Part shown: in pieces, positions 26,214-57,981 of the stretch
How positions within the stretch are numbered: position 1 is the first letter of the stretch
Layout: each line of letters starts with the position of its first letter
NCBI RefSeq assembly: GCF_015354445.1
Contig: NZ_JADKYT010000001.1
Span: 1,612,001-1,676,000 of the forward strand
DNA length: 64,000 nt
Direction: 5' to 3'
Source: Methylophilus sp. QUAN
Lineage (GTDB): Bacteria; Pseudomonadota; Gammaproteobacteria; Burkholderiales; Methylophilaceae
Made by a program: the position numbers and the translations under genes
Notes under the pieces: model-generated
The model's input: the letters and a program-made list of their open reading frames with translations, nothing else
Told to the model about the DNA's origin: nothing
Databases searched by the model: none

Positions 26214-27344
26214 ATGAATCACCCCATTGTGTTTATGCCACGGCACGCCAATGCTGATTTATTCAATACGGATAACTATGAGGTCTCAACAAATGCCGAA
26301 GTGGATGCCATGCTGCAAGAAAACGCAGTAGTGGCAATCGGGGTGTCTGGCGGCAAGGACTCTCAAGCTGCTGCTATTCGATTAATTCAGTATCTTGATG
26401 AAATTGGACATACCGGCCCGCGTGTTGCTATCCACGCCGATTTAGGGTCGGTGGAATGGGTTGAGAGTTTGCCAGTTTGTGAGCGGCTATGTGAAAGGCT
26501 GGGGATCGAGCTGATTGTTGTGAAACGTGCTGCAGGAGGTTTGATGGAGCGTTGGGAGACGCGGTGGAAGAATAATCTGGCACGTTATGAGAGCTTAGAG
26601 TGTGTCAAATTAATCCTGCCGTGGAGTACGCCAGCGCTACGTTTCTGCACTAGTGAGACCAAGACAGCTACGATCTGTGCCGAATTAACCAAGCGTTACC
26701 CCGGCCATAAAATTCTTTCTGTCACTGGTGTACGCCATGCTGAAAGTTCTGCACGTGCACGTATGCCAATTTCTTCGCCACAACCCAAGCTATCGGCCAG
26801 GAAGTGTTACGGCATCAACTGGAATCCGATTATTACCTGGTCGACGCCAGCAGTATATCGGTATCTCGAATTGGAGAACGAGCCGCTTCATGAGGCTTAT
26901 ACGACCTACGGCACCAGTAGAGTTTCCTGTACTTTCTGCATCATGGGCTCAATCGGAGATCTGATTGCATCAGCCACTTGTCCTGATAATGCTGCTATTT
27001 ATCGCAGAATGGTCGATTTGGAAATTCAATCAACCTTTGCATTCCAGGGCAACCGGTGGCTTGGAGATGTAGCGCCACATTTACTTTCCCTCGAACAGGT
27101 GCATGGTCTTCAAGAAGCTAAGCGGCGTGCTGCTATCCGGCAGGAAGCTGAAGCTTTGTTGCCAGCGCATTTGATGTATAAAAAAGGATGGCCAGAAGCT
27201 ATTCCGACAAACAGTGAGGCCATGTTGATTGCTTCTGTGAGGCACACAGTTTCTGAGACCGTAGGGATCAAAGCTGATTATCTGGAGCCAACAGCAATCA
27301 TTCAACGCTATATCCAACTTATGAATGCAAAAAAAGCTGCTTAA
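26214..27344 (+). CDS. PAPS-reductase-like PP-loop ATP pyrophosphatase
   Basis: 376 aa. The PP-loop IGVSGGKDSQAA near residue 44 binds ATP. A PAPS-reductase-type body follows, with VAIHADLGSVEW, LRFCTSETKTATI, VTGVRHAESSARA and a SCTFCIMGS cysteine pair. Enzymes of this superfamily adenylate substrates, for example in sulfate assimilation or DNA phosphorothioation (DndC). No dnd partner genes are nearby, so the substrate is open. The AGGGATAC region before the ATG gives a plausible site. It stands alone. Confidence 0.75.
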   Translation: MNHPIVFMPRHANADLFNTDNYEVSTNAEVDAMLQENAVVAIGVSGGKDSQAAAIRLIQYLDEIGHTGPRVAIHADLGSVEWVESLPVCERLCERLGIELIVVKRAAGGLMERWETRWKNNLARYESLECVKLILPWSTPALRFCTSETKTATICAELTKRYPGHKILSVTGVRHAESSARARMPISSPQPKLSARKCYGINWNPIITWSTPAVYRYLELENEPLHEAYTTYGTSRVSCTFCIMGSIGDLIASATCPDNAAIYRRMVDLEIQSTFAFQGNRWLGDVAPHLLSLEQVHGLQEAKRRAAIRQEAEALLPAHLMYKKGWPEAIPTNSEAMLIASVRHTVSETVGIKADYLEPTAIIQRYIQLMNAKKAA

Positions 27345-30351: not shown

Positions 30352-31575
30352 TTAGTGAAAAATTTGCTCATTAAGAACCAGATCAGAATTGCCAGCAAAT
30401 CGCACTGCTGAGCCTTGCACATATTCAAGCATACATTCTGTCGACAGCCATCGCCTACCAGAATCTTCAGCCTGTTTTGGGATCACGGAAGATCCTGAAA
30501 ACAAATCAACCACTAGATCGTCCTTATCAGTTAGGAACTTGATTATTTTGAGTACCAAAGCTCCAGGCATCATAGCGCCATGAGTCGGCCAATTCCGATG
30601 TCTCAAAATCTTCAGCAGCTCCCTATTTTCTTTATCCGTGTGAGAGTATTCCAATACATTACGCGGTATTCTACCTTCAGTGATGTTTGAATAACTCCCA
30701 GGCTTCAGGATATAGGCGCCATCGTTATTTGATGCGAATTTCTTTGACCCGCCGTTCTCAATGTATTTTCTATGAGTTTCTGTGTGTGGTTCAAGAACGC
30801 GGCGATTATTGGATTTACAAGCCAATGGATCTACAGCAAACCAATAAATTGGTTCATAGGCAACATTGAGTTGCTGCCTTGTTTTCGAAGCCCATTGCAG
30901 CGGCCCTGGTGGCTTGGATTTATTGTGCCACACCCATCGATCCATCAAGGCCAAGTTAAATCTTTCGTTAATGGCGATAACCAATTTTTCCAGATACAGA
31001 TTGCGGGATGGCAGGCCCTCATTGAACACATCATTTGTCACATTGATTACCAAACTGCCTTCACGATGAAGGTTTTTTACAATAGGCTCCAAAGATTTGC
31101 AAATGAAATCGGTATATTCCTGCGCTGTAGGATTTCCATACGCCCTTGGCTTCCGTAATGGATATGGTGGTGATGTGAGGCAAAGCATGATTGGCTCATC
31201 CAGGTTTTTCAACGCTGTTTGGTTGTTGCCCCAAATAGCGATTCCCAGCTTTGTAGAATAGGCCACCATGGCCACATTATTCCTAATCTTGGTCAGCTTA
31301 CCCTTGCCTTCTTCGGTTAACTGCCAGATACCACGCTCTCCTTCAACCCGCTCAATCAGCCCGAGTTTCTTCATCGTTTGCTGATGCCACCGCACCTGGC
31401 GCTTAATCAGGTTTTGTTCTTGCCCACTCTGTCCAATTTTGACTTTTACATCAAGATCGGCATGGCTGATACCTGCTCTTTTGGCGACTTGCTCATATAA
31501 ATCATGAGTGGCCAAAGGGAATTCCGGACGTTGCGCAAAGGCTTCGGCAACGTGGTCAAATAGATGCATTTGCAT
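30352..31575 (-). CDS. Beta-class N4-cytosine/N6-adenine DNA methyltransferase
   Basis: 407 aa. An N-terminal winged-helix domain (~residues 15-95, Mrr-N-like) precedes the methylase. Motif IV LCLTSPPYPL (~134) comes before motif I VVDLFSGSSVIP (~360), the permuted order of beta-class enzymes. TSPPY is common in N4-cytosine methylases, but N6-adenine is not excluded. The fused reading domain resembles that of type IV/Mrr systems. No endonuclease is adjacent. One base separates it from the thymidylate-synthase-like gene, so they share a transcript. Confidence 0.8.
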   Translation of the reverse strand: MQMHLFDHVAEAFAQRPEFPLATHDLYEQVAKRAGISHADLDVKVKIGQSGQEQNLIKRQVRWHQQTMKKLGLIERVEGERGIWQLTEEGKGKLTKIRNNVAMVAYSTKLGIAIWGNNQTALKNLDEPIMLCLTSPPYPLRKPRAYGNPTAQEYTDFICKSLEPIVKNLHREGSLVINVTNDVFNEGLPSRNLYLEKLVIAINERFNLALMDRWVWHNKSKPPGPLQWASKTRQQLNVAYEPIYWFAVDPLACKSNNRRVLEPHTETHRKYIENGGSKKFASNNDGAYILKPGSYSNITEGRIPRNVLEYSHTDKENRELLKILRHRNWPTHGAMMPGALVLKIIKFLTDKDDLVVDLFSGSSVIPKQAEDSGRRWLSTECMLEYVQGSAVRFAGNSDLVLNEQIFH

Positions 31576-31576
31576 G

Positions 31577-32569
31577 CTATTTAACCATTTCAGTTTTTAT
31601 GGCCGCATGGCTCTGGTAATTCTCAAGCCAGATATCATCTGGTTCAATCCGGTCGAAAGCGCCCTTGTACGTTTCCAGGGTGACTCTCTGGATATTTTCA
31701 GACAAAACGAGCGTTGGCGCCTCGAAGTCATCACGGGTCAGAACTTCATCTACAGCTGCCAGTGATGACCCGTAAAGATGAGCATTTGTGGCGTTGATAC
31801 AAACCTTCCCGGGCGTCATCCCTACCAACCGGCACACAACACACAAGAACAAGTGTGTCAGTTGCAGGTTAAATGCGAGATGGCAATCCCAGGATCGCAT
31901 CGAACACTCGATATCCAATGAGTTATCAGCATTCCAAGTGAATGAATAAGTGTGGTGGCAAGGTGGCAGTGAGCACTTGTCAAATGTGCCCACATGCAGT
32001 GCCGTTACGATCATCCGGCGGTCAGTTGGGTTTGTAAGTAAGGTTTTAAGCAGATTGTCCAGCTGTCGAATAGGACGTGCCATACAGTATCTGCCGTCCT
32101 GGCCCTGTAGCTCAACTTCATACCCTTGCTGGATGTAAAAGTCTCGTTCAGCTTCTCCAGTGACCACACAACGGTCGATGACTTCCTTGAATTGATAAAT
32201 CAATCCATTATCGTTTTCCCCTTTGCGCCATGGGTTTTTGAGCCACGCTTCAGTACCATTGGCATTCGCATACCAGACTTTAGTGCCTACTTTCTCAAAG
32301 TCGGCCGCATTGGTGTAACCACGGAAAAAACCGAGTAATTCCCCGACCGGGCCACGAAGTCTGAATTTTGAAGGATCGTCCTTATCTTCAATCCCGATTT
32401 TTCTGCGAGTATTGGCAAGAAAGCCCTTTGAGCCATCAAACTCTAAATGGGCAGTGGATTTGTAATAACAAATTTCCCCGGTTCTCTGATTCTTGAGCTG
32501 CTTTCCGTTTGTCCGGAGTTCTGCCAATAAATCAAAATATGGCTTCATCAAGTTATTTGTGTTCGACAT
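31577..32569 (-). CDS. Thymidylate synthase / dCMP-hydroxymethylase family enzyme
   Basis: 330 aa. Catalytic Cys204 in SLPPCHHTYSF, the phosphate/nucleotide motif RSWDCHLAFN (225-234), ELLGFFRG and the late NAHLYGSS all match the ThyA fold. Asn234 stands where ThyA has the pyrimidine-reading Asn (phage dCMP hydroxymethylases have Asp), hinting at a uridylate substrate. The C-terminus is diverged from ThyA. It could methylate or hydroxymethylate dUMP, or feed a modified-base pathway. It is directly upstream of a DNA methylase. Promoter at 32595. Confidence 0.75.
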   Translation of the reverse strand: MSNTNNLMKPYFDLLAELRTNGKQLKNQRTGEICYYKSTAHLEFDGSKGFLANTRRKIGIEDKDDPSKFRLRGPVGELLGFFRGYTNAADFEKVGTKVWYANANGTEAWLKNPWRKGENDNGLIYQFKEVIDRCVVTGEAERDFYIQQGYEVELQGQDGRYCMARPIRQLDNLLKTLLTNPTDRRMIVTALHVGTFDKCSLPPCHHTYSFTWNADNSLDIECSMRSWDCHLAFNLQLTHLFLCVVCRLVGMTPGKVCINATNAHLYGSSLAAVDEVLTRDDFEAPTLVLSENIQRVTLETYKGAFDRIEPDDIWLENYQSHAAIKTEMVK

Positions 32570-33059: not shown

Positions 33060-34112
33060 CTACGCCCAGACATTCTCTTGCTTGGCTATTGGTATTACTT
33101 TTTTCCGGCGACTGTCATACGCATTATCATCCGAGCGTAATTCGTTGGCTCTGGTCATGAAATGCAGTGTCATGTCAGGACTGCGAATAACGTTGAAGTC
33201 TGCATCTACCACGCCATTTTGCACAGCCCACTGATTCCAGCTAAATGATCGGCCAAGGCCTACGGTCGTGGTGGTGCTCGGAAAGCGGTCGCCAGACCGT
33301 ACCATTTCTTCCCATTGCTTTCCGGTTGCCAGCTCATCAAATCGAGAATGCTTCCCTGTCAGGGCAACTCTTTCCATAATCAAAGCACGTTCAAGTAGGT
33401 CAGGCTCGTTGGCCGCCAGCCAGTACAGTTCCCATTCTTTGGATGCCGGACAGAAAAAGCACGCGGATTTCACTGGAACATAATCTTCACCCAGGACAGT
33501 GAAAATTGCTTCTACACACTCAGAGCGAGTCCATCCCAATGTCTGGAGCGGGTAGTAAAAATCGAAGTGAGGGTCATCTTGGATGATTTTGCTAGAACGC
33601 TTGAGGTCGGCTTTTCCGCAGTCATACCCGATCAATTTGACGATTCGTTGTCGTGTTTCCTGGGCCTCAATCCATACCGGATGCGCGGGCTGTTTATTCG
33701 GGCCACGGTTAACCCCTTTTATGAAGTTGTCCTGAACGCCTGATTTCCATTTCTGACTACAACTTTTAAGGCCAAACGCCAATGATGGTAGCGTTTCGTT
33801 TTTAATGCATTCTCCATATAGTTCATTGTAGCCTGTTGAATCCAAGGTCTTTTTCGTCACAACGCTGATTTCCGGCCATCCCCATCTTTTCATGACCTCC
33901 TGCATGCGATCAAGATGGTGATATGTTTGGGCCTTCTCAGCTTTAGTGTCCGCAAAAGAAATCAATTGTGGTGTTATTCCGGCCACTTTAAGCGCAACCA
34001 TCATTGCGGTCGAATCGACTCCGGCGCCGAAGCAAAGATTAATGAGCCGCCCTTCAAGTTGGCTACGCATAGCGATCATGGCTGACGGATTAAATAGCGC
34101 CTGATTATCCAT
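33060..34112 (-). CDS. Second PP-loop (PAPS-reductase-like) protein, variant loop
   Basis: 350 aa. NLCFGAGVDSTAMMVAL near residue 27 is a PP-loop in which SGGKDS is changed to GAGVDS. Then come QLISFADTKAEKAQTYHH and a CFFCPAS cysteine pair late in the domain. This matches the phosphoadenosine-phosphosulfate-reductase-like proteins often found in phage genomes, whose substrate is not settled. Its start overlaps the preceding stop by 8 bases. Together with the gene at 26214 it gives two distinct PP-loop enzymes 7 kb apart. Confidence 0.7.
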   Translation of the reverse strand: MDNQALFNPSAMIAMRSQLEGRLINLCFGAGVDSTAMMVALKVAGITPQLISFADTKAEKAQTYHHLDRMQEVMKRWGWPEISVVTKKTLDSTGYNELYGECIKNETLPSLAFGLKSCSQKWKSGVQDNFIKGVNRGPNKQPAHPVWIEAQETRQRIVKLIGYDCGKADLKRSSKIIQDDPHFDFYYPLQTLGWTRSECVEAIFTVLGEDYVPVKSACFFCPASKEWELYWLAANEPDLLERALIMERVALTGKHSRFDELATGKQWEEMVRSGDRFPSTTTTVGLGRSFSWNQWAVQNGVVDADFNVIRSPDMTLHFMTRANELRSDDNAYDSRRKKVIPIAKQENVWA

Positions 34113-34567: not shown

Positions 34568-34810
34568 TCAATCATCTGTTACAAGTATATCCGTTAGTTG
34601 CTTGGCCCTTGGTTTCCAATAATGACCGCAATGATTACAACTACAATGCAGACTTATCACACCTCCAGGAATATGATCGTCTGCCCGGTCTGGCATAACC
34701 CCGTTGGTTACCGTTATGTGTACTACTTCTTCAAAAACTTCTTGTGTAGTGAAGTTTTGTTGTTTGCACTTCGGACATTTAATTTTCACTTTCCTTCCAG
34801 AAAAGTTCAT
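34568..34810 (-). CDS. Zinc-ribbon protein (80 aa)
   Basis: Two cysteine pairs, IKCPKCKQ and CSCNHCGHYW, form a treble-clef or zinc-ribbon fold with the middle segment as a loop. Its start overlaps the stop of the 117-aa membrane gene (TAATG). Similar small ribbons occur at 43759 and 53252. Likely nucleic-acid or protein binding; role unknown. Confidence 0.65.
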   Translation of the reverse strand: MNFSGRKVKIKCPKCKQQNFTTQEVFEEVVHITVTNGVMPDRADDHIPGGVISLHCSCNHCGHYWKPRAKQLTDILVTDD

Positions 34811-35163
34811 TAAAGCACTCTTCCCAATTCCGAGCGAAATTGTTCCGTCGACATAGACGTGATTGGTTTATTTTCACTCTCATGAGCTACGGGTGATTGC
34901 TGACTACCACAGATGCATGAATAGTATTCACACCCACATTTCTCGTGCCGTGGAGTGATTATTTCCCTAGAGCCAATAGTAAGGCCTGCCCCATAGAGAA
35001 ATAACGCTGCCAATGAAGCACAGGTGATTGAAATTTCATCCTGTAAAAGGAAGGCCTTTGGTAATAATCCGTTGTCGAGAAAAAACAAAGAAATAGCAAG
35101 CCAGGCCAATGTTAGCCAGCCTATCAATCGTAATGTCTTGCCAACCAGATACTGAATAGTCAT
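34810..35163 (-). CDS. Hypothetical membrane protein with Cys motif (117 aa)
   Basis: Two membrane segments (LIGWLTLAWLAISLFFL and ITCASLAALFLYGAGLTIG), then a soluble tail with CGCEYYSCICG. The ATG at 35163 has GGGAG at good spacing, while the next one upstream is too close. First gene of a coupled pair; promoter at 35193. Confidence 0.6.
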   Translation of the reverse strand: MTIQYLVGKTLRLIGWLTLAWLAISLFFLDNGLLPKAFLLQDEISITCASLAALFLYGAGLTIGSREIITPRHEKCGCEYYSCICGSQQSPVAHESENKPITSMSTEQFRSELGRVL

Positions 35164-35192
35164 GTGCATCTCCCAATGAAGTCCATGAATTC

Positions 35193-35220
35193 ACCCTAGC
35201 ATCCGAACTTCTGAATTCAA
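35193..35220 (-). promoter_or_regulatory. Promoter of the membrane/zinc-ribbon pair
   Basis: TTGAAT, 16 bp ending TGC, TAGGGT, then GAATTC on the minus strand. Confidence 0.65.
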
Positions 35221-35277
35221 GTGGAGAGGCAGTTTTTTTAATCGACTAAAAAGACGTGGAAAAATATTTCGAGCCTA

Positions 35278-35305
35278 TTGATTTCACAAAAACATCTGGT
35301 AATCT
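35278..35305 (+). promoter_or_regulatory. Promoter of the 468-aa gene
   Basis: TTGATT, 16 bp ending TGG, TAATCT. The transcript would start near 35312 and include the multi-hairpin leader. Confidence 0.65.
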
Positions 35306-35315
35306 GTAATTAAGT

Positions 35316-35428
35316 GGTTACCCGAACCAGCTGTGCGCACCTGAAATCAGGCGTAGCGAATCAGGGTCAGTAATACTGAGTTCCTTTTTTTAGTAGAAGG
35401 CCTACTCGGAAACGCGCACACCCGAATT
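35316..35428 (+). ncRNA. Multi-branched structured 5' leader of unknown class
   Basis: A closing stem TGTGCGC (35332-35338) with GCGCACA (35414-35420) encloses three hairpins: CCTGA-TCAGG (35340-35351), TCAGT-ACTGA (35367-35379) and AGTAG-CTACT (35392-35406). Before it lies GGTT-ACCCG-AACC (35316-35328); the loop motif ACCCGAA recurs after the closing stem. It is followed by an AT-rich link and an AAAGGAG ribosome site. The layout is like a riboswitch or protein-binding leader, but I recognise no known class. Confidence 0.5.
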
Positions 35429-35469
35429 GTTTTGGCCGTATTTATTTTCTACTTTTAAAAGGAGTATCT

Positions 35470-36876
35470 ATGTTTCATCCAAACTACACTGGCGCTGTTG
35501 CGCTTCTCAGTAAATCCCTCGCATCACGCGACATTCTGATTCCACCAGGCAAGCCGTTATATGACGCTTTCCTAAACTATTTTGAAGATAATGACATGTT
35601 CTTGGCCGCATCCATCATGGGTACGGTTGATACCAAGCGTGATTGGCATTACATCGAAATTGGTGCGAGCCGCGAGAATAAGGGGTCTTTAGAATTTATC
35701 AATCTCACTGACTCATTTGCTTCTGCAATTGCGACAGTTGTAGATGAAATTGACTCGACACATATTTATCCTGACGCTATTCGTGTCGTTGGCAATTCGT
35801 TGCAGTTCCATAAAAATGACGAATTAATGTACAAGGTTGGCAAGGTCGAGTTTGCATCCTTTGATCAGTCTCTTTCAGAGCGGTGCCGCGCACACTTTAA
35901 AGGTATCCGCAGCTATGGCGACAAGTCCAGACTGGTTAATCGACTACAATCCATTCCGAACTTAGAGAAACTTTCCTGTGAAGAAGAGCGCCCCCGTGAG
36001 GATCGGGGACACTCAATGGTGGCTATGGTTGAAAATTTCCCTATTTTTATGCGCTCTATGCTTGCCACTAGATTTAATATCGAAATCAAGCAATCGGTAG
36101 CATTGGAAATTGTCGCTGAAACCTTTGGTGCAAAATCATGGAATGTTTTTAAGGCAGCAGCAGATAAATTGTCATTTGATTCAAAACCTGTATTTATCTA
36201 CATGCCAAACACTCAGCCCAGCGCACAGTTGTTTTACAAAAATATTTTTGATGGATTAGCTGGACTGTCTAAAATCGTTGCTGGCTACCCAGGAAGAGAC
36301 AATTTAGTTATCGAGCTCTCCGGGGCAGCAACGGCAGATACAGTCTATGTGAATGCCTACAACCCAGCATTTGATAAGAAATTTGATTTCTACACCCAGC
36401 ATCAATCTGAACTTGAATTATTCGCTCCTGTAGAAGTGTCGTCTGATGAAGAAAGTACAGAATACTTCGCGTGGGTTAATGATGTAGCCTACGGAGAAGT
36501 CGCCTCGAAGCTTAACGATATTCTTTTGGTTTCATCGCCATTAAACTCTCGATTGGCCGCTACTAGTGTGCGCAAGAACCATCGTGTTCTCTCGATTGGT
36601 AAATACCTATTCACGGTTTTCGATGCAGGACAGGGCCGTGACTACCTTAAGGTTGAGTTGTTGGTGGCCGGTGGTGGTGAAGTAAATGCGATGGTTAAAC
36701 CAGCTGTTACGGCCATATACAAAGCTGAAATTGTTGTTCAAAGCGATGGCGTAATGATTCTGGGTGATTATGGTCATGACAAGATTGCGGCGTTAAATGA
36801 CTTTACGGACCTTGATATTAAACGCCTGACTGATTTCACAGGAATCAAAGCTGCTCGCGGAACCGTGTTTCAATAA
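35470..36876 (+). CDS. Large hypothetical protein with glyoxalase-superfamily-associated helical motif
   Basis: 468 aa, soluble. Residues ~190-230 read FPIFMRSMLATRFNIEIKQS, then ALEIVAETFGAKSWNVFKAA. This is a short helical unit common in plasmid proteins annotated as glyoxalase-superfamily. The remainder is unrecognised. A weaker copy of the same unit is in the 54496 gene. Strong AAAGGAG site; structured leader; terminator at 36902. Its single-gene transcript with a complex leader suggests tight control. Confidence 0.65.
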   Translation: MFHPNYTGAVALLSKSLASRDILIPPGKPLYDAFLNYFEDNDMFLAASIMGTVDTKRDWHYIEIGASRENKGSLEFINLTDSFASAIATVVDEIDSTHIYPDAIRVVGNSLQFHKNDELMYKVGKVEFASFDQSLSERCRAHFKGIRSYGDKSRLVNRLQSIPNLEKLSCEEERPREDRGHSMVAMVENFPIFMRSMLATRFNIEIKQSVALEIVAETFGAKSWNVFKAAADKLSFDSKPVFIYMPNTQPSAQLFYKNIFDGLAGLSKIVAGYPGRDNLVIELSGAATADTVYVNAYNPAFDKKFDFYTQHQSELELFAPVEVSSDEESTEYFAWVNDVAYGEVASKLNDILLVSSPLNSRLAATSVRKNHRVLSIGKYLFTVFDAGQGRDYLKVELLVAGGGEVNAMVKPAVTAIYKAEIVVQSDGVMILGDYGHDKIAALNDFTDLDIKRLTDFTGIKAARGTVFQ

Positions 36877-36901
36877 AGTTCATAGTTTAATGAGACGTAC
36901 A

Positions 36902-36938
36902 GGGGATATGCACCAAGGTGCTATCCCCTTTTTTATTT
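36902..36938 (+). terminator. Strong terminator
   Basis: GGGGATA and TATCCCC enclose an inner GCACC/GGTGC helix, then TTTTTT. Ends the 468-aa gene and lies at the 3' end of the convergent lipoprotein gene. Confidence 0.9.
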
Positions 36939-37394
36939 CAACCTTTTCTCAAGGTTATTGAGAATTACAACAGAGTGTGTGGCCTGGTGGTGTGTTTGAC
37001 CTGAAGTTATTCTTACCGTGGTATATCTAGTCAAATAATCAACCAGATTGTCTTTTGTGCACTTTACGTCGCAAGCAATTAAAGCAAAATCCAAAAGTTC
37101 TGCTGCGCCGATCGCAGCTCCATGCTGCTTTGCAACCTCATGAGCATTCACCACAAAGTCTGCAACTTGTTGTTTTGGTGTTGCATACACTTCTTCTGCT
37201 GCATTCAATAGGCCATTCACTCGCGCAATTGATAAGTCAGACTCCGGAAGAAATTTTCCTGCATCGATTGAGGCAACCTTGTATTCCAGGCTATTTGAAA
37301 TTTCAGTTTTTTTATCTTCAGGCTTTTTGCAGGCCGATAGAACGACAACAATCAAAACAGCGACAAGGTATTTTTTTCTCATAATAGGTTTCAT
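36933..37394 (-). CDS. Lipoprotein (153 aa)
   Basis: Signal peptide with lipobox VVLSAC ending at Cys22, followed by KKPEDKK; the mature part is helical and has a second cysteine pair (IACDVKC). The start could be four codons later at 37382. It should be anchored in the outer or inner membrane leaflet. No family recognised. Confidence 0.65.
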   Translation of the reverse strand: MKPIMRKKYLVAVLIVVVLSACKKPEDKKTEISNSLEYKVASIDAGKFLPESDLSIARVNGLLNAAEEVYATPKQQVADFVVNAHEVAKQHGAAIGAAELLDFALIACDVKCTKDNLVDYLTRYTTVRITSGQTHHQATHSVVILNNLEKRLK

Positions 37395-45820: not shown

Positions 45821-45828
45821 GCTAACGG

Positions 45829-45907
45829 ACTGGCCACTTAATACTTCCGGCTCAATGCCAGGTTATGCGTCCGGCTTACTGCCAGCTTATTCTTCTGCAA
45901 GCAAGGC
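45829..45907 (-). repeat. Copy A of an ~80-bp repeat (relic of the C5-methylase 3' end)
   Basis: Similar to 46781-46860 over the whole length. Each copy holds 24-bp imperfect tandem units, TTCCGGCTNNNTGCCAG then TTATG. In copy B the end of the methylase gene lies in the repeat; in copy A the matching bases follow the stop of the 256-aa gene without belonging to it. Confidence 0.7.
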
Positions 45908-46755: not shown

Positions 46756-46780
46756 TATCTCCAGCGAATCTCGCCACTCG

Positions 46781-46860
46781 AACCGGCCACTTAATACTTC
46801 CGTCTCAATGCCGGGTTATGCTTCCGGCTTACGGTCAGGTTATGCTGCTGCCCGCAAGGC
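46781..46860 (-). repeat. Copy B of the ~80-bp repeat, overlapping the methylase stop
   Basis: Holds the last codons of the C5-methylase and 60 bases after the stop. See copy A at 45829-45907. Confidence 0.7.
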
Positions 46861-54332: not shown

Positions 54333-54377
54333 TCGGATGGTCCTTTTTTATACACACGGCATCCCAGTTTTTAGGGA

Positions 54378-54455
54378 TTGGCCCAAGTAGTCCAAATCTA
54401 CCCGGGCCGGTACAACGTTTATCTAGAAGAGAGAGGAATCTAGATAATTTAATCC
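54378..54455. repeat. Repeat R1 of a ~75-bp hairpin element
   Basis: Two inverted repeats, GGCCC/GGGCC and TTATCTAG/CTAGATAA. About 43 of the first 48 bases equal those at 57910. It lies between the lipoprotein gene and the stop of the 301-aa gene. Confidence 0.75.
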
Positions 54456-57881: not shown

Positions 57882-57909
57882 ATTATGCCTTTCAGTCAAT
57901 ATCAAAAGA

Positions 57910-57981
57910 TTGGCCCGAGCAGTGCAAATCTACCCGGGCCGTTACAACGCTTATCTAGGAGACTAATCTAGATAATTTCAT
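57910..57981. repeat. Repeat R2 of the ~75-bp hairpin element
   Basis: Same two inverted repeats as R1, slightly shorter in the centre of the second. R1 and R2 are direct repeats that bound the block 54496-57881 (301-aa, DnaJ-like, 248-aa, MazG-like). Confidence 0.75.

Follow-up and report, generated by a model that had tools for sequence, protein, structure and literature searches.

The window (the whole 64,000-nucleotide stretch of DNA that was analysed) resembles a mobile element, with genes for an integrase, a Gp3-like recombination directionality factor, a ParM-like protein, a UmuC-type polymerase, UvrD and DEAD-type helicases, and DNA methylases. A thymidylate synthase-like protein, a DNA methylase with an Mrr N-terminal domain and two PAPS-reductase-like proteins are encoded close together (31577-32569 -, 30352-31575 -, 26214-27344 + and 33060-34112 -), a group reminiscent of DNA-modification cassettes. 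Two pairs of intergenic-looking direct repeats were also observed, one at 45826-45907 and 46779-46860 (82 nt, 85% identity) and the other at 54376-54430 and 57908-57962 (55 nt, 89% identity). A 28-nt promoter-like block (TTGATTT-N15-TANNCT or close) occurs eight times (7937+, 29360+, 35278+, 59242-, 45820-, 43663-, 40407- and 32622-), as though a single regulator or sigma factor acted on the whole element, and by eye the blocks other than that at 35278 mostly have an ATG within about 50 nt after them.

The block at 35278 precedes the leader of a gene for a 468-aa protein (Table 1). A preliminary description of this DNA had proposed a multi-branched structured leader between a clear promoter at this position and the ribosome site. 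The promoter-like block does start there, but it was absent from the results of a sigma-70 consensus scan. The promoter region of the leader recurs at the right edge of the window (63991-64032; L002 1501-1542; 42 bases, 81% identity), before another small gene and without the structured leader.

Table 1. Features of the leader and of the downstream gene (positions in the window)
Feature	Position	Strand	Remarks
Promoter-like block TTGATTT-N15-TAATCT	35278..35305	+	28 nt; regular-expression match; common to seven other places in the window
Hairpin P0, GGTT-ACCCG-AACC	35316..35328	+	35316-35319 pairs with 35325-35328
PKa 5' strand ACCC, in the P0 loop	35320..35323	+	Pairs with GGGT, 35364-35367
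PKb 5' strand TGTGCGC	35332..35338	+	Left side of the closing stem of the preliminary description; conserved part 35333-35338
Hairpin P2, CCTG/CAGG	35340..35351	+	Complementarity judged by eye
Conserved linker, AGCGAATCAGGGT in the window, class GGYRAA...	35355..35367	+	PKa 3' strand at its end
P4 lower stem, 5' side	35382..35402	+	35382-35388/35457-35463; 35392-35398/35447-35453; 35399-35402/35434-35437
P4 apical stem, 5' side, UCGG	35406..35409	+	Pairs with 35422-35425
PKb 3' strand GCGCACA, within the P4 apical loop	35414..35420	+	
P4 apical stem, 3' side, CCGA	35422..35425	+	
P4 lower stem, 3' side	35447..35464	+	Includes the Shine-Dalgarno sequence AAAAGGAG, 35457-35464
Gene for the 468-aa protein	35470..36876	+	Putatively controlled by the leader
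PF20066-like segment	36076..36168	+	Codons 203-233 of the 468-aa protein; E 0.00047, 20.7 bits, curated cut-off 23.7

All sequence elements of the preliminary description are present: the P0 hairpin, a perfectly complementary 7-bp stem, three hairpins inside it (P2, TCAGT/ACTGA at 35367-35379 and AGTAG/CTACT at 35392-35406) and the repeat ACCCGAA, found at 35320 and 35420. P0, PKb and the linker lie in this order a short distance 5' of the start codon. The folding stability of 35290-35460 did not stand out from that of shuffled sequences (z -0.69), of which 41 of 200 were at least as stable, and the fold exactly as first described had an energy of -25.5 kcal/mol versus -31.9 kcal/mol for the minimum-energy fold, which also holds six pairs of the long-range stem. 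Folding of a single sequence gave the leader no support, and the matter could be decided only through comparison.

Close homologues of the 468-aa protein are absent from the collections searched. None besides the protein itself was detected in plasmid DNA, 149 related genomes, genome contigs or viral contigs, nor in a tblastn search of plasmids and phages, and its predicted structure (mean pLDDT 62.6) matched nothing in the PDB at E 0.001. Among 399 genomes of the same order, one distant homologue was found in genome G227 (24% identity over residues 12-240), and 369 genomes of the class gave two weak matches (L025 and L026). A tblastn search with the G227 piece led to Cupriavidus plasmids and a Teredinibacter plasmid, and the same leader was present 5' of each of the G227, Cupriavidus and Teredinibacter homologues. 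The window and G227 leaders both read GGTT-loop-ACC, GTGCGC, hairpin, GCGAATCAGG, and GCGCACACC. The leaders of distant homologues again contain P0, P2, the long-range stem and the linker; the leader-bearing homologues of the 468-aa protein are 16-24% identical. The G227 homologue (L024 777-2259) spans two overlapping reading frames, through an assembly error or a real break, while L056 and others have one long frame. In addition, Pseudomonas megaplasmids (L033-L036) encode the C-terminal domain of the Cupriavidus homologue as a stand-alone protein of ~140 aa, sometimes unannotated and without the leader; in L033-L038, the loci retrieved for this domain, the leader model gave no match at E 1.

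The leader could also be reached from its RNA features alone. These were written as a DNA pattern from three seeds (the window, G227 and Cupriavidus), and the scan of a genome collection that comprises 84,980 species by its description yielded 32 matching loci. In 11 of them a relative of the 468-aa family begins just downstream, as detected by tblastn; they belong to Dechloromonas (2), Azonexus, Zoogloea, Oryzomicrobium, Undibacterium, Rubrivivax, Variovorax, Cupriavidus pauculus and two unclassified Proteobacteria MAGs. Two of the 11 go back to the seeds (L066 is the G227 seed itself, and L081 encodes a protein identical to that of the Cupriavidus seed), which leaves nine new loci. L058, L070 and L078 have one leader in common, as do L061 and L068. 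No relative was present among the tblastn results listed, obtained with five query pieces, for the other 21 loci and four matches in viral contigs. Because the pattern fixes parts of PKb and of the linker, the independent evidence from these loci consists of P0, P2, the P0-loop side of PKa, and P4. A second RNA-only pattern had one match in viral contigs (L105), located 5' of a gene for a PF20066-type segment plus pentapeptide repeats. The single match of a third pattern (L106) lies inside an unrelated open reading frame.

When the leader DNA was compared with 150 genomes of the family, seven genomes matched, but only with pieces of 22-35 bases outside its own genome, and in plasmids there were two records with a 41-base piece under a glycerate kinase. 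Model R1 had matches in 11 of 300 genomes, two of which were seeds; the other nine were judged by eye, from their sequence, to be chance. Model R2, run on 229 genomes, found the window's own genome and L089, the latter rejected because it falls in a coding region. Model R3 gave one convincing copy in its own genome (that of the window) and one in G492 (at the place of L094), both of which were training rows, and no copy in a same-genus genome or in G364.

The proteins downstream have one short part in common. A protein-family profile had five matches in the 399 genomes: the 468-aa protein itself, the G227 homologue and three proteins sharing only a short segment. In L094, model R2 placed a leader (E 2.6e-5) just 5' of a gene that begins with a match to the N-terminal part of PF20066; L092 and L093 carry the segment and had no leader match. 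A tblastn search with the L094 protein retrieved 55 plasmid records. Nine were fetched, hand-picked for different annotation, and all nine genes carry the leader, with about 30-50 nt between the end of the PKb strand and the start codon. Co-occurrence with the segment partly guided the choice of relatives. Model R2, trained on the 468-aa-family group only, detected four of these leaders (E 4.5e-5 to 0.03), and the other five were recognised by eye and then aligned. The segment has ~50 aa and is joined, under the same leader, to LON-substrate-binding, pentapeptide, Glyoxalase_7 or DUF3471 domains, or to a region with no Pfam match. It is clear in L094, L097-L099, L101-L103 and L105. A BLAST search with the L099 leader identified 17 plasmids of Agrobacterium, Rhizobium and Phyllobacterium (87.5-100% identity), in which the gene at the leader end is annotated as LON-substrate-binding in 14 and as endopeptidase La in one, with two records lacking annotation. 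A weak leader match in the right place (E 0.18 or 0.03) was seen in L039 from Methylibium, whose protein has no Pfam match and a segment recognised by eye. Within the 468-aa family, Pfam found PF20066 in two of seven scanned proteins (those of the window and Teredinibacter), both below the cut-off, and not in the five others; for these the link rests on alignment.

The model and its statistics are based on 19 distinct leaders, i.e., 21 aligned leaders minus L058 and L061, which are near-copies of L056. The arrangement that very likely describes them has two pseudoknots and comprises P0, P2, PKa, PKb and a long hairpin, P4. For P0 and PKb together, 95.9% of cells were paired versus 80.1% after shuffling (0/500) and 22-46% with slid partners, and double-change cells numbered 32 versus 9.9 (0/500); the number of pairs with a double change (88/500) and that of pair types (356/500) showed no excess over shuffles. 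The two strands of each pseudoknot matched each other better than strands swapped among the 19 leaders, shared ancestry not being removed from these comparisons or from those with shuffles: PKa had 4.68 bp with its own versus 2.72 bp with swapped partners, and PKb 5.89 versus 3.31 bp (both 0/2000). Under the same terms, own partners also exceeded swapped ones in the P4 apical stem (3.95 versus 3.11 bp, 0/2000) and the P4/Shine-Dalgarno duplex (28.1 versus 18.0 kcal/mol, 0/500). PKb variants include GTGCGC/GCGCAC, GTGCAC/GTGCAC, GCTCGC/GCGAGC, GCTTGC/GCAAGC, GCTCAC/GTGAGC and GGTTGC/GCAACC, with five pairs in Ter and L100. PKa is ACCC/GGGT in the window and GTCC/GGAC, GCCC/GGGC, GATGCT/AGCATC, GATACA/TGTATC, GATACG/CGTATC, GGAGGCG/CGCCTCC or GGTGCC/GGCACC elsewhere; a strict PKa was not convincing in L062, Ter and L104. 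In all leaders the two sides of P2 are complementary, judged by eye alone.

The tetrads just outside the PKb 3' strand are themselves complementary (UCGG/CCGA in the window; UCAG/CUGA, CUGG/CCAG, GCGG/CCGC and GAGG/CCUC elsewhere, with only two apical P4 pairs in L097). They turn this strand into the apical loop of P4, and PKb is therefore read as a pseudoknot. Below the apical stem, UCCUUUU (35382-35388) pairs with AAAAGGA (35457-35463) and AGUAGAA (35392-35398) with UUCUACU (35447-35453) in the window, and this arm is present in the unconstrained minimum-energy fold of 35307-35475. The window P4 duplex has an energy of -28.1 kcal/mol versus -15.4 kcal/mol for shuffled arms (z -4.03, 0/200). 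In 15 of the 19 leaders at most two of 200 shuffles were as good; the exceptions were L102 (3), L105 (10), L097 (11) and L100 (42). With the PKb strand kept free, at least five of the ten positions upstream of the AUG were paired in 19 of 19 leaders, a raw count that has no shuffled control. Folding revealed no open state of the window leader. When the first-described stem, P2 and the local hairpin were forced, the structure was 4.1 kcal/mol weaker and most of the Shine-Dalgarno sequence was still locally paired. The leader appears, in these folding predictions, to hide the ribosome-binding site of the downstream genes.

Comparison of the sequences supports the helices and their covariation, and the leader is almost certainly a genuine conserved RNA, though not a simple multi-branched junction. 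The preliminary description had named homologues without the fold, or an absence of covariation, as what would speak against it; this comparison was run and came out in its favour, with a structured leader between the promoter-like block and the ribosome site that recurs and covaries in distant homologues. Its 7-bp closing stem is conserved as six pairs and is best read as PKb, reaching into the apical loop of the longer hairpin P4. Among the three enclosed hairpins, P2 is conserved, whereas relatives do not preserve TCAGT/ACTGA and AGTAG/CTACT as local hairpins. Its extent, 35316-35428, was too short, as the functional structure reaches the Shine-Dalgarno site beyond 35428. The exact ACCCGAA repeat is present in the window but not conserved among relatives, and the model accounts for it: the first copy is the P0 loop that forms PKa, and the second includes CCGA (35422-35425), which forms the 3' half of the P4 apical stem.

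The leader probably controls how much of the downstream protein is made, and such control is likely to act through the ribosome site. In the proposed mechanism, PKa would form by docking of the P0 loop onto the conserved linker, and PKb by docking of the strand that separates P0 from P2 into the P4 apical loop. The stretch after the linker is predicted by folding to pair with the Shine-Dalgarno region as the P4 lower stem, which would close the ribosome site. The PF20066-type segment, the one part common to the downstream proteins, may then bind the pseudoknotted core and lock or release P4, resulting in autogenous control. As a whole, a cis-acting RNA that controls translation, keeps the ribosome site closed when folded and has the PF20066-type segment as effector is the best explanation, to which we give an even chance. 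Autogenous control through the shared segment, suggested by co-occurrence and domain shuffling, falls a little short of that. More tentative is the broader possibility of an uncatalogued RNA class with a dedicated ~50-aa PF20066-type module that recognises the two-pseudoknot leader, such that, on plasmids and other mobile elements, any domain joined to the module is subject to autogenous control of its translation.

The main rival is a small-molecule riboswitch. The core with its two pseudoknots would then serve as an aptamer, and binding of a ligand would open or lock P4 and so regulate proteins that resemble ligand-binding or detoxification proteins. The compact pseudoknotted core, the conserved unpaired letters (linker GGYRAA and AA before the PKb 3' strand), the arm that sequesters the Shine-Dalgarno site, and the occurrence of Glyoxalase_7 and pentapeptide repeats among the downstream domains would all suit this reading. 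However, transporters and enzymes would also be expected under such an RNA, and every leader-bearing gene seen encodes the segment or a 468-aa-family protein, a weak argument since the RNA-only scans are subfamily-specific; we consider a riboswitch unlikely. A constitutive damper or thermosensor, whose fold lowers translation without an effector, is less probable again: nearly all leaders have a strong sequestering hairpin, but such a device has no need for two conserved pseudoknots or a conserved linker at this divergence of the proteins. It is very improbable that a separate functional RNA, such as an RNA antitoxin or sRNA, is processed from the leader, which is compact and found on mobile elements but forms a single unit, has no terminator-like site on the plus strand between it and the gene, and pairs into the gene's own Shine-Dalgarno region. 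A DNA element such as an operator or recombination site, to which the near-palindromic PKb strands of some members might point, can practically be dismissed given the sense orientation to the gene in the loci examined, the long-range compensatory changes and the coupling to each gene's own Shine-Dalgarno region.

Returning to translational control with the segment as putative effector, the analysis describes an RNA family that has no Rfam entry, sets out its base pairs explicitly, with covariation, and names a candidate protein partner. It suggests RNA recognition as the function of a segment that Pfam labels only as glyoxalase superfamily. If true, it would show how one leader-plus-segment cassette can bring unrelated proteins under one control.

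The preliminary description had recognised no known riboswitch, and this holds for Rfam 15, which gave no match over the leader (the window at the gathering threshold; 35170-35500 and 18 loci by E-value). The same search identified a ZMP-ZTP riboswitch (RF01750) in L101, at 1814-1895 and 5' of folD on an Agrobacterium vitis plasmid, and so works on these loci. ARAGORN detected no tRNA or tRNA-like structure. A literature search, with most subscription journals and preprints outside its scope, brought up no paper on the leader or on PF20066. In type III RNA antitoxin loci the toxin gene is preceded by a pseudoknot unit repeated in tandem and by a terminator; the window does not show this arrangement, with one R3 match and no plus-strand terminator-like site in 34700-37000. 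As to the protein, PF20066 Glyoxalase_8 proteins have the shared segment as their N-terminal ~50 residues, whereas the 468-aa protein has it mid-protein, with a sub-threshold match only.

Among known leader RNAs, the ZMP-ZTP riboswitch is also pseudoknotted, but in L101 it precedes folD, and the leader described here ends about 800 nt upstream and is unrecognised by Rfam. The preQ1-type pseudoknot riboswitches acting on the Shine-Dalgarno site likewise couple a pseudoknotted leader to access to the ribosome site; they differ in size and topology from our leader, which has no Rfam match. Autogenous ribosomal-protein leaders such as that of S15 resemble it in being structured and partly pseudoknotted, in preceding the gene of a protein that may bind them, and in translational control, whereas here the fold and the protein are different, the binding is putative, and the proteins encoded behind one leader have unrelated C-terminal domains.
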